Source: Streptomyces sp. (GTDB lineage Bacteria > Actinomycetota > Actinomycetes > Streptomycetales > Streptomycetaceae). Taken from it: a stretch of 64,000 bases of DNA. A program made the position numbers and the translations under genes. Where the stretch lies: positions 1 to 64,000 of the forward strand of contig JABFVM010000037.1 of NCBI GenBank assembly GCA_013362785.1, in the 5' to 3' direction. The notes below the pieces were generated by a model. The model ran no database searches, was not told the origin of the DNA, and was given only the letters and a program-made list of their open reading frames with translations. Shown here piece by piece: positions 14,646-21,000 of the stretch. Each line of letters opens with the position of its first letter. The first letter of the stretch is position 1.

Positions 14646-15251
14646 ATGACCACCGCACGGGACCTCGCGATCGTCGCCCTGGACCTGGCGCCGGACCACC
14701 CGGTGGAGCAGGGCGATCTGTCACTCGCGCTCGCGGCTGCCGAGGTGTTCGACCTCATCGAGGCCCGTGCCCTCGTCCTGGACGATGACCGCATCGCACC
14801 CAGCGCCCAGGCCCCGACGGGCGACCGGCTGCTGGACGAGGCCGCCTCCTCACTCATGCGGAACGAGCCGTACGAGTCGGTCGAGGACTGGCTCTGGCGC
14901 CGGGGCCGCGGACTGTCCGCGGCCTATGTCGCGGATCTGGAGAGCGTGGGTCTCACGGCCCGGCCGCGGGGGCGCCGGGTTCCGCTGCGGACCGGGTGGA
15001 CGGTGCCGGTCGACTCGGCGGCCCGGCAGCGGGCCGCGGAGCGGTGGGGAGCACGCGAACCGCTCCTGGTCGCCCTGGCGGCCGCTGCCGGGATCCAGGA
15101 CGAGTCGGCCGACAGCACCGAGAACCTCGCCGACGACACGGTCACAACCGTGCTGGCCGCCGTCGGCGACGCGGTGATGGAACTCGAAGCCGTACGGCAG
15201 CGGCGGGTGATCGAGGACGCCGCATTCGACAACGTGTGGCGCGGCTTCTAG
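14646..15251 (+). CDS. GPP34 (GOLPH3/VPS74-like) family protein
   Basis: The 201-aa protein matches the GPP34 family, bacterial relatives of eukaryotic Golgi phosphoprotein 3: MTTARDLAIVALDLAP at the N-terminus, an AAAEVFDLIEARALVLDDDRI segment, and the helical LTARPRGRRVPLRTGWTVPVD region with basic residues suited to phosphoinositide-like or membrane binding. Streptomyces genomes often carry several copies, some near conservon or regulatory genes. The bacterial role is unknown. The start ATG at 14646 is preceded by GGAG. Confidence 0.85.
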   Translation: MTTARDLAIVALDLAPDHPVEQGDLSLALAAAEVFDLIEARALVLDDDRIAPSAQAPTGDRLLDEAASSLMRNEPYESVEDWLWRRGRGLSAAYVADLESVGLTARPRGRRVPLRTGWTVPVDSAARQRAAERWGAREPLLVALAAAAGIQDESADSTENLADDTVTTVLAAVGDAVMELEAVRQRRVIEDAAFDNVWRGF

Positions 15252-15573: not shown

Positions 15574-16152
15574 TCAGAGCAGCGGTAGCCCGTCCGCCGC
15601 CCGCCGCTCCAGCCTCACCACCAGGTCCGCCGCCGACGCCTTGATGGTGTCCAGCCCTGGCCTCCCCCACGGCCGCGGCTCCACGTCGACGACGCACACC
15701 GTGCCCAGCGCCATCCCCGTGGAGTCGATGAGCGGCGCGCCCAGATAGGACCGGATGGCGAACTCGTCGACGATCGGGTTGCCCGCGAACCTCGGATAGT
15801 CGCGGACGTCCTCCAGCACCAGCGCCTTGCGTCGGACGACCACATGGGGGCAGAACCCATGGTCGCGCTCCATGTGGCGCCCCAGCTCCGGCTTGGTGTC
15901 GTCGGCCCGAGTGAGGCGCACTGTGGTCCGCACATGCAGGCCGGCGAAGAACTGCCGGTGCTCGCCCATGAAGTTGACCATGGCGTACGGCGCCGCGGTG
16001 AGCTCGGCGAGCTGGCCCGCGAAGGCGTCCAGGGCCGGGTCGGGGCTCTCGCCCAGCCCCAGACTGAACAGCCGCTGTGCACGAGCGGGAGCCTCCTTGT
16101 CCTCGGGGGTGAGCAGCAGACGAGCGACCGGGCGGGGTGGGCCATAGCTCAT
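15574..16152 (-). CDS. GAF domain-containing protein
   Basis: The 192-aa protein consists essentially of one GAF domain from about residue 35 to the end (APYAMVNFMGEHRQFFAG, DHGFCPHVVVRRKALVLED, IRSYLGAPLIDSTGMALG). It has no output domain, so it probably acts through partner proteins. It follows cvnD by 61 bp on the same strand and is likely the fifth gene of the conservon operon. The ligand is unknown; such GAF domains bind heme, cyclic nucleotides or small metabolites. Confidence 0.85.
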   Translation of the reverse strand: MSYGPPRPVARLLLTPEDKEAPARAQRLFSLGLGESPDPALDAFAGQLAELTAAPYAMVNFMGEHRQFFAGLHVRTTVRLTRADDTKPELGRHMERDHGFCPHVVVRRKALVLEDVRDYPRFAGNPIVDEFAIRSYLGAPLIDSTGMALGTVCVVDVEPRPWGRPGLDTIKASAADLVVRLERRAADGLPLL

Positions 16153-16213: not shown

Positions 16214-16813
16214 TCACATGTGGGCGCCGTGGCTCGGCGCGGCTGCCGGGGTGTGGGCGATGAGGTGCCGTACGAGGGTCAGCAGGGTCTGCACACCGGA
16301 GCTGGAGATCCGGGCGTCGCAGCGGACGATCGGGATCTCCGGGTCGAGGTCGATGGCGGCGCGTACCTCCTCGGGGTCGTACCGGTACGAGCCGTCGAAC
16401 TCGTTGATCGCGACGATGAAACCAAGGCCGCGCTGCTCGAAGAAGTCGACGGCCGCGAAGCAGTCCTCCAGGCGCCGGGTGTCGGCGAGGATGACCGCGC
16501 CGAGCGCACCCTCGGAGAGCTCGTCCCACATGAACCAGAACCGTTCCTGTCCGGGTGTGCCGAACAGGTACAGGACATGTTCCGGATCGAGCGTGATGCG
16601 GCCGAAGTCCATGGCCACTGTCGTCTCGACCTTGTTCTCGACTCCTTCGAGGCTGTCGGTCGCGGCGCTGACCGTGGTGAGCAGTTCCTCCGTACTGAGC
16701 GGCGCGATCTCGCTCACCGCGCCGACGAAGGTCGTCTTGCCGACCCCGAACCCTCCCGCCACCAAGATCTTCAGTGCGGTGGGGAAGGGGTCAGAGCTGT
16801 CGTCGTAGTCCAT
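16214..16813 (-). CDS. CvnD-type small GTPase (conservon)
   Basis: The 199-aa protein has a P-loop GGFGVGKTT at residues about 20-28, a switch II-like FGTPGQERF and a base-recognition NEFD at the position of the usual NKxD. It belongs to the MglA-like conservon GTPases that work with CvnA, CvnB and CvnC as a membrane-linked signalling complex resembling a eukaryotic G-protein system. The start overlaps the end of cvnC by 23 bp. The final His-rich residues (HGAHM) are an idiosyncratic tail. Confidence 0.92.
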   Translation of the reverse strand: MDYDDSSDPFPTALKILVAGGFGVGKTTFVGAVSEIAPLSTEELLTTVSAATDSLEGVENKVETTVAMDFGRITLDPEHVLYLFGTPGQERFWFMWDELSEGALGAVILADTRRLEDCFAAVDFFEQRGLGFIVAINEFDGSYRYDPEEVRAAIDLDPEIPIVRCDARISSSGVQTLLTLVRHLIAHTPAAAPSHGAHM

Positions 16814-17162
16814 CGAGCACTGCCTCCAGAAGAGCCCGGTCAGTCGGGTTGTGGTGGAACTCGGGGGGCTTGGTGGTGAGCGCCCCGCCGTCGACGAGGT
16901 CCGACAGCAGCACCTTGGTGACCGCCGCCGGCAGCTTCAGCTGGGCGGCGACCTCGGCGACCGAGACGGGGGCGCGGCACAGGTCGAGTGCCTGCTCGTG
17001 CTCGGGGCCGAGGTAGCCGAGGGGGGTCGCCCCGGTGGCCATCACCTGCGACATCAGGTCGAGCGCGATGGTGGGCCTGGTACGGCCGTTGCTGACCGTG
17101 AAAGGGCGCACCAGCCGTCCGGCCGCGTCATCGAGCCAGGGCCCGTCGCCGGCCGCCGTCAC
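16791..17162 (-). CDS. CvnC-type DUF742 protein (conservon)
   Basis: The 123-aa product matches DUF742: GDGPWLDDAAGRLVRPFTVS followed by NGRTRPT at the N-terminus, then a winged-helix-like region VSVAEVAAQLKLPAAVTKVLLSDL. The GTG at 17162 lies two bases after the cvnB stop and gives the family's usual length; the long ORF in the track runs through cvnB in another frame. In conservons CvnC is thought to interact with the GTPase CvnD. Neighbour order and overlaps match the cvnABCD pattern. Confidence 0.88.
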   Translation of the reverse strand: MTAAGDGPWLDDAAGRLVRPFTVSNGRTRPTIALDLMSQVMATGATPLGYLGPEHEQALDLCRAPVSVAEVAAQLKLPAAVTKVLLSDLVDGGALTTKPPEFHHNPTDRALLEAVLDGLRRQL

Positions 17163-17164
17163 GT

Positions 17165-17599
17165 TCAAGGCCTCATCGCCGAGGGTTCGACGGAGTGCTG
17201 ACGGGGGGCGGTGACCAGGTACGGGCGGACGCTCTTGACCAGCATCGCCATCTCGTAGCCGAGCACGGCCGCGTCGGCCTCGCGGCCGGCCAGTACGGCG
17301 AGGCAGGTGCCGGATCCCGCCGTGGTCACGAACAGCAGTGTCGAGTCGAGCTCGACGACGACCTGGCGCACGTCCCCGCCGTCGCCGAAGCGGACTCCGG
17401 CGCTGCGGCCGAGGGAGTACAGGCCGGAGGCCAGGGCGGCCATGTGGTCGGCGCTGTCCGGGTCGAGGCCGTGAACCGACTTCACGAGCCCGTCGCAGGA
17501 GAGGAGTACCGCACTGGTCGTGTGCGGTACGCGCTGCACGAGGCCGCTCATCAGCCAGTCGAGATCGGAGACATGAGCGGTCGGCGCTTCGCTCGCCAT
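17165..17599 (-). CDS. CvnB-type roadblock/LC7 domain protein (conservon)
   Basis: The ATG at 17599 (MASEAPTAHVSDLDWLMSGL) gives 144 aa forming one roadblock/LC7 domain, recognisable by VPHTTSAVLLSCDGLVKSVH and ALASGLYSLGRSAG. Roadblock proteins associate with the small GTPase CvnD in conservons. The ORF track starts 96 bp upstream, but that part lacks similarity to the family. It is separated from cvnA by 92 bp, and cvnC follows two bases after its stop. Confidence 0.9.
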   Translation of the reverse strand: MASEAPTAHVSDLDWLMSGLVQRVPHTTSAVLLSCDGLVKSVHGLDPDSADHMAALASGLYSLGRSAGVRFGDGGDVRQVVVELDSTLLFVTTAGSGTCLAVLAGREADAAVLGYEMAMLVKSVRPYLVTAPRQHSVEPSAMRP

Positions 17600-17691
17600 G
17601 ATGGATCGACTCCTTGAGGTACGAATGTCTGCGGGAGCGCTGGAGACGGGGGTGGCCTTCCAGGCGGACTTCGAGCTGGTCAGGGGCGTGG

Positions 17692-20472
17692 TCATCCGGC
17701 CGGTGCGCTCCCGTCGTGCCGGGTGGTGTGGTCGGTGCCGTACCCGGACCCACCGTCCCGCCCACCGCGCACATCACGGGGCGGGGACGCGGGCCCGGGG
17801 TGCGTCTCGGTCATGTGGGCCCGGTCCATGGGCGAAAGGTCCATGGGCGGTCGGGTGGTCATGGGGGTCACGTCTGTGTGGAGTGCATCCGTGTGGAGTG
17901 CGTCCAGGGAGGTCGGGTGCAGACGTGGGGGTTGCGGGCGCCCCGTGTCGAAGTTCGTCGGCTCCAGCCGGATCGACGCCGGGCGCATGGACTCCAGGCG
18001 GGTGGGCTCGGGGGGCGTGGGGGCCGAGCGGGTCGGGGCCGGGGTGGGTGGCGTGGTGTCGGAGGTCGGGTGGAGTGAGTGGGGGTAGGGGGGTGTGGTC
18101 GGGTGGGTGGTGCTGGTCGGGGTGGCGGGGGTGTGGGCCGAGTCCAGGTGGGACGAGTTCATGTGGCCCAGGTCCGTGTGGCTCACGTCCATGTGTCCGG
18201 CGTCCATGTGCCCGGCGTCCATGTGGCCCGAGTCCTGGCGACCCCAGCCCAAGTGGGCGGACGTTGTGTGGCCCGAGGACATGTGGCCTGACGCCATGTG
18301 GCCCGACGCCGTCTGTGTCGCGCGGCTCGATGTGGTGTGCGGGGCGTCCATGTGGCCTGCGCCCGTATGCCTCGCATCCATGTGCCCGCCACCCATGTGG
18401 TCGCCGCCCATGTGCTCACCATCCATGGGTCCGGAATCCATATGCCGGGAATCCACGTGTCCGGCGCCCATGCGACCGGCGTCCAGGTGACCGGCGTCCA
18501 GGTGACCGGCGTCGAAACGCCCGCCCCCCAGATGGCCTGCATCCAGATGCGCCGCGTCCCCATGGCCTGCATCCAGCTGCGCCGCATCCACATGCCCCGC
18601 GTCCATGTGGGCCGCCTCCATGTGCGCCGCCTCCATGTGCTGCTGTGTCTCGGCGAGCCCAATGCCCCGCTGGAAGGCAGCCATCAGCCCCGGGTCGTGT
18701 CCAGCGATGACTTCGGATTCCTGACGCGGTGCGGGACCGTCACGGAGTTGGGGCGCGATGTGTTCCTGGGCGCGGCGGCGCGGCAGTTGGGGCTTGCCCA
18801 TGGTTCCGCGCACGGAACTGGCACGCGGCGTGGGCGGTGCGACGGTGTTCTCCGCGACGATCCGACGCTCGCCGGGCTTGATGCCGGGCACGGCCTCCGC
18901 CGGGTTGGCCCGCTCTGCGCCGGTACCGCGCACGGGCAGCGGTGCCGGTCCGTTGCCGTTGGCCCGCGGGGCCGTACCCCCCGCACCGGTCTGCGGCTGC
19001 TGCTGCCGACGCGACGTGCCGGACGACGCCTCGGCCGCACCGCGCTGCCCGCCTGCCGATGCGGCCGACGAAGGCTGCCGATGCTGCTGCGGCGGAACCG
19101 TCGTCTGCTGCGAACGTGCCTGCGGCGAGGAGTGCGGCGGCACGGATGCCTCCGCCGCCCCATGCGTCGGCGCCTGCACCTGCGTATGCGCCTGTGTCTG
19201 CGCGTGCGCCTGTGCCCGTGCATCCTGCGATTCCGGCGCCCGCCCCGAGCCTCCGCGCTCCCCCGGCTCCGTGCCCAACAACCCCTGCGGCACGACGAGT
19301 ACGGCCTGGACACCGCCGTAGATGTTGGTCTGAAGGCGCACATGGATGCCGTGCCGCTTTGCGAGCTGGGACACGACGAACAGTCCGATGCGCCCGTCCG
19401 CCAGCAGGCTGGCGACGTTGACCTGGTCGGGGTCGGCGAGCAGGGCGTTCATACGGTTCTGCTCGGCGACCGGCATGCCGAGGCCGCGGTCCTCGACCTC
19501 GACGGCGAGTCCCGAGGTCACGAGGTTGGCGCGAAGGAGTACTTGGGTGTGCGGGGCGGAGAACACCGTGGCGTTCTCGACGAGTTCGGCCAGCAGGTGG
19601 ATGACGTCGGCGACGGCGTGCCCGCGCAGGGTGCCGTCGATCGGCGGTACGAGCTTGACCCGCGAGTACTGCTCGACCTCCGCGATCGCCGAGCGCAGTA
19701 CCTCGGTCATGGAGACCGGGTTGCTCCACTGCCGGCGGGAGACGGCGCCGCCGAGCACCGCGAGGTTCTCGGCATGGCGCCGGATGCGGGTGGCGAGGTG
19801 GTCCACGTGGAAGAGGCCCTTGAGCAGGTCGGGGTCCTCGATCTCGTTCTCCAGCTCGTCGAGGATCGAGATCTCTCGGTGGACGAGTGACTGGAGGCGT
19901 CGGGCGAGGTTGACGAAGACTTCCAGCTTCTGTTCGCTGCCGGCCTGGCTGGAGAGCTGGGCGGCCTGGACGACGGCGGTGACGGCGCCGTCGTGGGCGC
20001 GGGCCAGATCGGCGGCGAGGAGTTCGAAGTCGTCGGCACCCTCGGGCGCACCGCTGCGCGACTTGCGCTTAGGCGGGCCGTCGCCGCGCCGCAGCGTCTC
20101 GACGAGGGCCCGCAGATCGGCTTCGCCGCGGGCGCTGCTGCGGCGCAGTGCGCCGATGCGGTCGCTCACGGACCTGGCGGTGCGGTTGGCGGCCACCGCG
20201 GCGATCAGGATGCCGGCCAGGGTCACCGAGACCGCACCGGTGAGCACGGCCCACAGGGTGAGGCTCGGCCGTGCTCCGGTGGTGCGCACGACGAACAGCA
20301 CGGCCGCGCAGGCGCTGAGAGCCACCGCGATGGGTGGCAGTACGGCCAGACGCAGCAGTTGGGGCCGTATATGGGTCTCGGGCAGCGCGGGTGCGGTGCG
20401 GGTGGCCGGGCGCCCGTGCCGCCCGCCCTCACGGCGGTCTGCGCGTGCGGCCGGGGCGCGGAGTTGAGACAT
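17692..20472 (-). CDS. CvnA-type sensor histidine kinase with pentapeptide-repeat tail (conservon)
   Basis: The ATG at 20472 (MSQLRAP) has GAGGA upstream and gives 926 aa. Order: basic cytoplasmic N-terminus; two membrane helices around residues 45-95 with almost no periplasmic loop; coiled region; a dimerisation/His-like region NLARRLQSLVHREISILDELE; HATPase domain with ENATVFSAPHTQV and DRGLGMP; a Gln/Ala linker. Then comes an unusual tail: about 33 degenerate pentapeptides of consensus H-[ML]-D-[AS]-[GA] at residues about 611-781, and a Pro/Thr-rich end. The core is a conservon kinase; the tail is not a usual part of CvnA and may bind metal or another partner. Confidence 0.9.
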   Translation of the reverse strand: MSQLRAPAARADRREGGRHGRPATRTAPALPETHIRPQLLRLAVLPPIAVALSACAAVLFVVRTTGARPSLTLWAVLTGAVSVTLAGILIAAVAANRTARSVSDRIGALRRSSARGEADLRALVETLRRGDGPPKRKSRSGAPEGADDFELLAADLARAHDGAVTAVVQAAQLSSQAGSEQKLEVFVNLARRLQSLVHREISILDELENEIEDPDLLKGLFHVDHLATRIRRHAENLAVLGGAVSRRQWSNPVSMTEVLRSAIAEVEQYSRVKLVPPIDGTLRGHAVADVIHLLAELVENATVFSAPHTQVLLRANLVTSGLAVEVEDRGLGMPVAEQNRMNALLADPDQVNVASLLADGRIGLFVVSQLAKRHGIHVRLQTNIYGGVQAVLVVPQGLLGTEPGERGGSGRAPESQDARAQAHAQTQAHTQVQAPTHGAAEASVPPHSSPQARSQQTTVPPQQHRQPSSAASAGGQRGAAEASSGTSRRQQQPQTGAGGTAPRANGNGPAPLPVRGTGAERANPAEAVPGIKPGERRIVAENTVAPPTPRASSVRGTMGKPQLPRRRAQEHIAPQLRDGPAPRQESEVIAGHDPGLMAAFQRGIGLAETQQHMEAAHMEAAHMDAGHVDAAQLDAGHGDAAHLDAGHLGGGRFDAGHLDAGHLDAGRMGAGHVDSRHMDSGPMDGEHMGGDHMGGGHMDARHTGAGHMDAPHTTSSRATQTASGHMASGHMSSGHTTSAHLGWGRQDSGHMDAGHMDAGHMDVSHTDLGHMNSSHLDSAHTPATPTSTTHPTTPPYPHSLHPTSDTTPPTPAPTRSAPTPPEPTRLESMRPASIRLEPTNFDTGRPQPPRLHPTSLDALHTDALHTDVTPMTTRPPMDLSPMDRAHMTETHPGPASPPRDVRGGRDGGSGYGTDHTTRHDGSAPAG
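18130..18642 (-). repeat. In-frame 15-bp repeat array coding for about 33 pentapeptides
   Basis: On the coding strand a degenerate 15-bp unit repeats roughly 33 times, encoding H-[ML]-D-[AS]-[GA] (examples: HMDAG, HLDAG, HMDSG, HMGGG). The period preserves the frame. One unit is expanded to eight residues near residue 720. The pattern resembles the pentapeptide-repeat beta-helix rule (small residue, polar, Leu) but with His in the polar position. It is part of the CvnA-type kinase gene, not a CRISPR. Confidence 0.85.
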
Positions 20473-21000
20473 CGGGGTCCTCGTACTGGTCCGTCGGTCG
20501 GGGCCTTGGGGCGTGCGCGCGGTCTGCGCGACCCGGGGCATGCGCCATCGCGATGTCGGTCGACAGAACCGACGAAATTCGGCTCCGTGTCGCCCGACGG
20601 ACACTCACAGTAGTCGCCTCCGCATCATGTGCGGTGGGCAGTTGACAAAGTCCCGCAGGCAGCGTCCCGCTCTGGTATGAGCTCTCGTACGACAGACCGA
20701 TAACCGGCCCTGCCGTTCGCCCGCATGAAGTCCCCGAATGATCAGACCTGGTCAGAAGTGGTCACGAGGAAAAGTCGGGGGTGGGGCACGTCATGTGCCC
20801 CACCCCTCGTGGACTTCCGTTTTTCGCGCTCGCCGACACCCCGGCCGGGACGGTTCGGCGCCGCGCACGTCCGGCTCCGCGCCCCCGGCACGTCACGGGC
20901 CGTATCGGCGCACGCAACCCAACACGCACCCCGCCCCGCTCCCACACGCCCGGCGTGAACCGACCCTCACGGGCCCTCGCGGGCGCGCGGAGGCTCCCTG
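20473..21000. other. Intergenic region upstream of the conservon
   Basis: About 530 bp hold the promoter of the conservon operon near the cvnA start and a strong hairpin at 20778-20806. Open frames here are Pro/Arg-rich and not protein-like. I see no other gene. Confidence 0.6.
20778..20806. terminator. Strong hairpin terminator after the MBL-fold hydrolase gene
   Basis: GGGGTGGGGCAC pairs perfectly with GTGCCCCACCCC around a 5-nt loop. On the minus strand it is followed by CGACTTTTCC, so it suits termination of the minus-strand hydrolase gene upstream. Plus-strand transcription also meets a TTTTT run about 15 bp later. Confidence 0.85.

Follow-up and report, generated by a model that had tools for sequence, protein, structure and literature searches.

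The C-terminal tail of a CvnA-type sensor kinase from Streptomyces sp. carries a pentapeptide repeat that lies far beyond chance expectation, yet the tail is fast-changing and the repeat does not look like a conserved sensor. We think it fairly probable that the pentads form a hypervariable, probably disordered cytoplasmic extension of the kinase: an acidic and His-rich spacer or entropic arm that grows by duplication of its units. No description of such a pentad tail was found in the searchable part of the conservon literature, in agreement with the sequence-only reading, which did not know the pattern from CvnA proteins, and a search for such repeats in Streptomyces or histidine kinases returned nothing relevant. 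Published work on CvnA8 used residues 81–505 and makes no mention of such a repeat (PMC13343842).

The repeat array and its conservon

The window, that is, the whole stretch of DNA analysed (64,000 nucleotides), contains an intact cvnABCD operon with an additional GAF gene, in the order cvnA-B-C-D-F and with cvnA first. A Pfam profile search identified HATPase_c (E = 5e-8) as the sole domain of CvnA, and the full-length structure model predicted two membrane helices (residues 79–108 and 115 onward) joined by a short loop; an extracytoplasmic sensor domain is absent. The identity of the kinase as CvnA, proposed from the sequence alone, is thus supported by both the HATPase_c match and the operon, in which genes for Roadblock/LC7, DUF742 and small-GTPase proteins follow the kinase gene and a GAF gene is present, as in CvnF-associated conservons (AGPS). 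Near the conservon, on the plus strand (14646–15251), lies a gene for a protein with a GPP34 (Golgi phosphoprotein 3-like) domain.

Table 1 Features of the conservon and of the CvnA tail (window coordinates; aa, CvnA residues).
Feature	Position	Strand	Description	Basis
cvnA	17692..20604	-	CvnA-type sensor kinase, 970 aa, GTG start	ORF
Membrane/kinase core	19273..20370	-	aa 79-444, strongly conserved	orthologue comparison
Conserved motif VRGTMGKPQLPRRRAQEHIAPQLRDGP	18733..18813	-	aa 598-624	invariant columns, 34 orthologues
Conserved motif GHDPGLMAAFQRGIGLAE	18649..18702	-	aa 635-652, predicted helix	invariant columns, tail model
Pentad block 1	18325..18639	-	aa 656-760, 21 units	sequence, register count
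Pentad block 2	18121..18300	-	aa 769-828, 12 units, last unit degenerate	sequence
Tail continuation	17719..18120	-	degenerate, Pro/Thr-rich, traces of 5-residue period	sequence, lag analysis
C-terminal peptide HDGSAPAG	17695..17718	-	aa 963-970, conserved	orthologue comparison
cvnB	17165..17599	-	Roadblock/LC7; start at 17599 inferred	PF03259, E = 8e-24
cvnC	16791..17165	-	DUF742; start approximate	PF05331, E = 1.5e-36
cvnD	16214..16813	-	small GTPase-like, C-terminus SHGAHM	PF03029, E = 2.4e-32
cvnF-type gene	15574..16152	-	GAF protein, beside cvnD	PF01590, E = 1.3e-13

About 33 degenerate pentapeptide copies had been reported for the tail, and we counted 33 in the same place on the minus strand, divided into two blocks (21 + 12) that are each in phase and are separated by an eight-residue spacer, RATQTASG, which shifts the register. 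The unit itself is loose: H[ML]D[AS][GA] is matched exactly in 8 units and H[MLVT][DEG] in 21, so that the regular periodicity originally described was borne out while the fixed His/Met/Asp pattern holds only approximately. All 28 His residues of the stretch of about 170 residues fall into two of the five registers, 17 in one and 11 in another, while the remaining three hold 0; no shuffle among 20,000 brought 17 His into a single register. Identity of the tail with itself at a lag of five residues was 0.35, against 0.09 expected (z = 17.4), with more peaks at 10 and 15, and at the DNA level the array was visible to TRF with a period of 15. Many units have a hydrophobic residue at one pentad position, and the tail contains no Cys. 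The roughly 140 residues after the pentads retain a degenerate five-residue period (for example, TRLES MRPAS IRLEP and LHTDA LHTDV).

In the repeat, the G+C content at the three codon positions is 0.74/0.51/0.82, close to the 0.77/0.48/0.90 of the kinase part, so the minus-strand frame is the coding frame of the repeat. An open antisense frame (17598–18710, plus strand) was rejected as a gene on the same codon-position G+C; a 15-bp period tends to leave frames open.

Orthologue comparison showed that the ATPase domain is followed by a variable linker and then by VRGTMGKPQLPRRRAQEHIAPQLRDGP and GHDPGLMAAFQRGIGLAE. The last motif conserved among CvnA proteins reads LPRR..Q..APQLR ... GHDPGLMAAFQRG, after which the pentad extension begins; a related LPRR...LR stretch is present in two paralogues (L002 and L003). 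Two strongly conserved motifs, PQLPRRRAQEHIAPQLR and GHDPGLMAAFQRG (18649–18813, minus strand), stand out in a C-terminal part of CvnA that otherwise varies, and are likely docking sites.

Turnover and constraint of the tail

To follow the tail among relatives, we searched 150 genomes of the genus with the kinase domain and found relatives in all, the best match being at least 79% identical in about 60. Tails were compared in two overlapping sets, about 70 distinct ones from these genomes and 80 from named Streptomyces records. The repeat, whose presence and copy number had been put forward as the comparison to make among CvnA orthologues, expands, shrinks and vanishes quickly. In 93 Streptomyces orthologues the extension measured 28–323 residues, and its lag-5 z exceeded 4 in 63 of them; 20 sampled orthologues stop within 45 residues past the conserved motif, and many diverged ones have no tail. 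One large Streptomyces clade has an extension with pentads that is closed by a conserved HDGSAPAG-like peptide. Orthologues with 95–100% identical kinase domains carry arrays from a couple of units to more than 30, and even kinases identical over 240 residues differ in the length and sequence of their tails. The units are lineage-specific (HMDAG here; HMERP, LTDMG, PMDST, SPMDV, THREP and AHGTP elsewhere), and His in the pentads is replaced by Pro, Arg or Tyr. On a kinase tree built by a short search, the presence of a His-pentad array (at least 8 units) required at least 20 changes, 8 of them forced by well-supported branches. In three orthologues (L053, L141 and L172) the reading frame of the tail is apparently shifted, by assembly error or by a real frameshift, and the shifted frames of L141 and L172 continue to where the following conservon genes lie.

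Among close pairs, 61 of 135 tail indels were multiples of five residues, compared with 9 of 132 linker indels (p = 2e-13), which indicates that 15-bp units are gained and lost. Successive His residues across the clade lie five apart in 573 cases, compared with 46 at four and 34 at six. The rate of change at codon positions 1 and 2, scaled to that of four-fold sites, was 0.05 for the kinase, rising to 0.16 for the conserved motif and 0.66 for the linker; in the pentads, with ratios that are rough at about 100 codons per position, it was 0.5–0.6 at His, about 1.1 at Met, 0.35–0.39 at the acidic position (Asp/Glu) and 0.7–0.9 at the two x positions. Relative to the x positions, the acidic position was slower (p = 0.008) and Met faster (p = 0.03), and His was not significantly slowed (p = 0.36). 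A ratio of 0.09 at His, indicative of strong selection, was discarded because the register had been chosen from those His residues themselves; leave-one-out phasing of the units gave the value of 0.5–0.6. Tails are nevertheless richer than linkers across the clade in His (8.9% versus 2.1%) and Met (5.0% versus 0.5%), a non-random composition that may reflect either continued copying of units or selection on composition. The array behaves as a hypervariable minisatellite, periodic and with unit-sized indels, varying between close relatives by whole units and under weak position-specific constraint.

The His-rich end of CvnD, which had been mentioned alongside the array, is present and is unrelated to it: the ending, usually (S/G)(H/Y)GAHM, is near-universal in orthologous CvnD proteins, including the partners of short-tailed CvnA, and a tie between SHGAHM and the CvnA array was rejected since the ending is conserved whatever the CvnA tail. 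The extreme C-terminus of CvnD (16214–16231, minus strand, and in the CvnD genes of L100–L179) is a candidate short interaction motif in its own right.

Related 15-bp units also occur outside cvnA. Apparently intergenic 15-bp arrays with the core CACATGG and 4–17 copies were seen in several Streptomyces genomes (L270, L271, L274–L279, L282–L284 and L286–L288), some between convergent genes and most in Streptomyces sp. DSM 110735. A family of small Streptomyces membrane proteins (L182, L195, L209, L212, L220, L221, L224 and L227), possibly copper-related, has a His/Met-rich loop (HMDMSHMDMSHTGMSHMDHM and similar) encoded by a 15-bp unit as in cvnA.

Spacer, metal ligand, DNA element or folded shaft

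The structure predictions are consistent with a disordered tail. The model of the tail, of low confidence, had a mean pLDDT of 45 (range 30–45), no strands and a single helix that coincides with the conserved motif; the full-length AlphaFold model gave pLDDT 30–40 in the pentads but did little better in the ATPase domain, which is folded, and this makes it weak support for disorder. Pfam also returned DUF2807 at E = 0.002, a score that falls short of the curated cut-off and was taken as low-complexity chance. The absence of strands, at the low confidence of the models, bears on the suggestion that the pentads fold as a right-handed quadrilateral beta-helix, a rigid shaft like that of pentapeptide-repeat proteins. 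Despite the period of exactly five residues and the recurrent hydrophobic position, we regard such a fold as exceedingly improbable: the Pentapeptide family of Pfam matched neither the window protein (E up to 10) nor any of 34 orthologues (E up to 0.1), and a sequence search of the PDB with the repeat returned nothing (E up to 1). At the position that should face inward, 24% of units have Thr, and Gly, Asp or Pro often stands two residues earlier.

A tail that responds to pH or to metal (Cu, Zn, Ni, Co), its regularly spaced His, Met and Asp binding the metal so as to alter the kinase state or to buffer the metal, is in our judgement quite unlikely. The 28 His with a spacing of five kept across the clade, the similar H-M-D/G units in the loops of the small membrane proteins, and the binding of Cu(II) by disordered His/Met-rich CopI peptides (PMC13308877) all speak for it, and weak metal binding by such chains is chemically plausible by analogy. 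However, metal-ligand residues are not conserved across orthologues, where Met changes at about the neutral rate, His is weakly retained and arrays are often short or absent; a dedicated receiver also fits poorly with copy numbers that range from few to more than 30 among near-identical kinases and with the lack of Cys. No metal transporter or resistance gene was found among the immediate neighbours identified, and a tail behind the kinase domain would be cytoplasmic. If the tail did bind metal, an actinobacterial G protein system would gain a direct cytosolic input.

The array could instead belong to a family of 15-bp CACATGG tandem repeats that acts at the DNA level, expanding or binding protein in coding and intergenic DNA alike; the protein sequence would then be a by-product, tolerated since units of 15 bp keep the reading frame. 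Arrays with CACATGG spaced at exactly 15 bp were found in 16 of 150 genomes and at 14-bp spacing in 0, many lie between genes as judged with a rough gene caller, and the alternation of M and T (CACATGG/CACACGG) is common to noncoding and coding arrays. In DSM 110735, about 10 arrays occurred in the 0.8 Mb read, and its intergenic tandem repeats peaked at period 15 (26, versus 1 at 14 and 7 at 16), intergenic status again resting on that gene caller. The search was, however, seeded on CACATGG with few controls (the reversed pattern and one other core), all matches in the genome that the window comes from, which is about 80% complete, lie inside cvnA, and the acidic codon is constrained there. 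We consider this origin unlikely; the arrays may represent either a common element acting at the DNA level or similar minisatellites that grew in parallel. A combination, in which CACATGG arrays of a Streptomyces clade have a DNA-level role, for example through a repeat-recognising protein, and cvnA took one in frame that doubles as DNA element and kinase tail, seems very doubtful.

We favour the disordered spacer. The pentads occupy the space between the last motif common to CvnA proteins and, in one clade, the HDGSAPAG end, where duplication and loss of 15-bp units, as indel sizes and copy numbers show, make the tail grow and shrink. Selection would keep loose properties, namely the reading frame, acidity and perhaps His content, and not particular units; it is observed at the acidic position and presumed for the reading frame and His content. 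Acting as a spacer or an entropic arm that perhaps also makes weak multivalent contacts, the tail could set the reach or crowding around the docking-like motifs, with a loosely tuned length, and the topology of the kinase would place it in the cytoplasm. Sensing would more likely be the task of the neighbouring GAF (CvnF) protein. The His and Met enrichment of the tails and a constraint on the acidic position beyond a spacer's need speak against a pure spacer. Little is understood about conservon kinases, and their unstructured ends have been ignored; our comparison points to the two conserved motifs and the HDGSAPAG end as the elements worth pursuing, and probably not to individual pentads. 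If the tail is a spacer, its length would be a natural tuning knob among near-identical kinases.

Comparison with known systems

In-frame minisatellites make hypervariable disordered tails of bacterial proteins, and the CvnA array resembles them in a unit that is a multiple of three, in copy numbers that differ between close relatives and in indels of unit multiples; it differs in keeping its composition, and its acidic position, better than expected under neutrality. With pentapeptide-repeat proteins (PF00805 and relatives) the tail shares the five-residue period but neither a profile match, suitable inward residues nor predicted strands. A pentapeptide-repeat protein, MfpA, does occur in the mycobacterial mfp conservon. 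Disordered copper-binding segments such as that of CopI (PMC13308877) likewise combine His and Met with acidic residues. CopI, however, is a periplasmic protein with a highly conserved inner segment, whereas the CvnA tail is variable, presumably cytoplasmic and a candidate metal binder.

The closest counterparts are conservons of Streptomyces coelicolor, in which no sensor domain is present in CvnA7 to CvnA13 and conservons 7 and 8 include a gene for a GAF protein (PMC8510531). An accessory role has been described for CvnF; the GAF protein CvnF8 binds and stimulates CvnA8, and unstructured terminal regions have been reported for both (PMC13343842). The window conservon matches Cvn7 and Cvn8 in its cvnA-B-C-D genes with a GAF gene, its HATPase domain, its two helices and its missing sensor domain, and is set apart from them by the long His/Met/acidic pentad tail of its CvnA (PMC8510531, PMC13343842).
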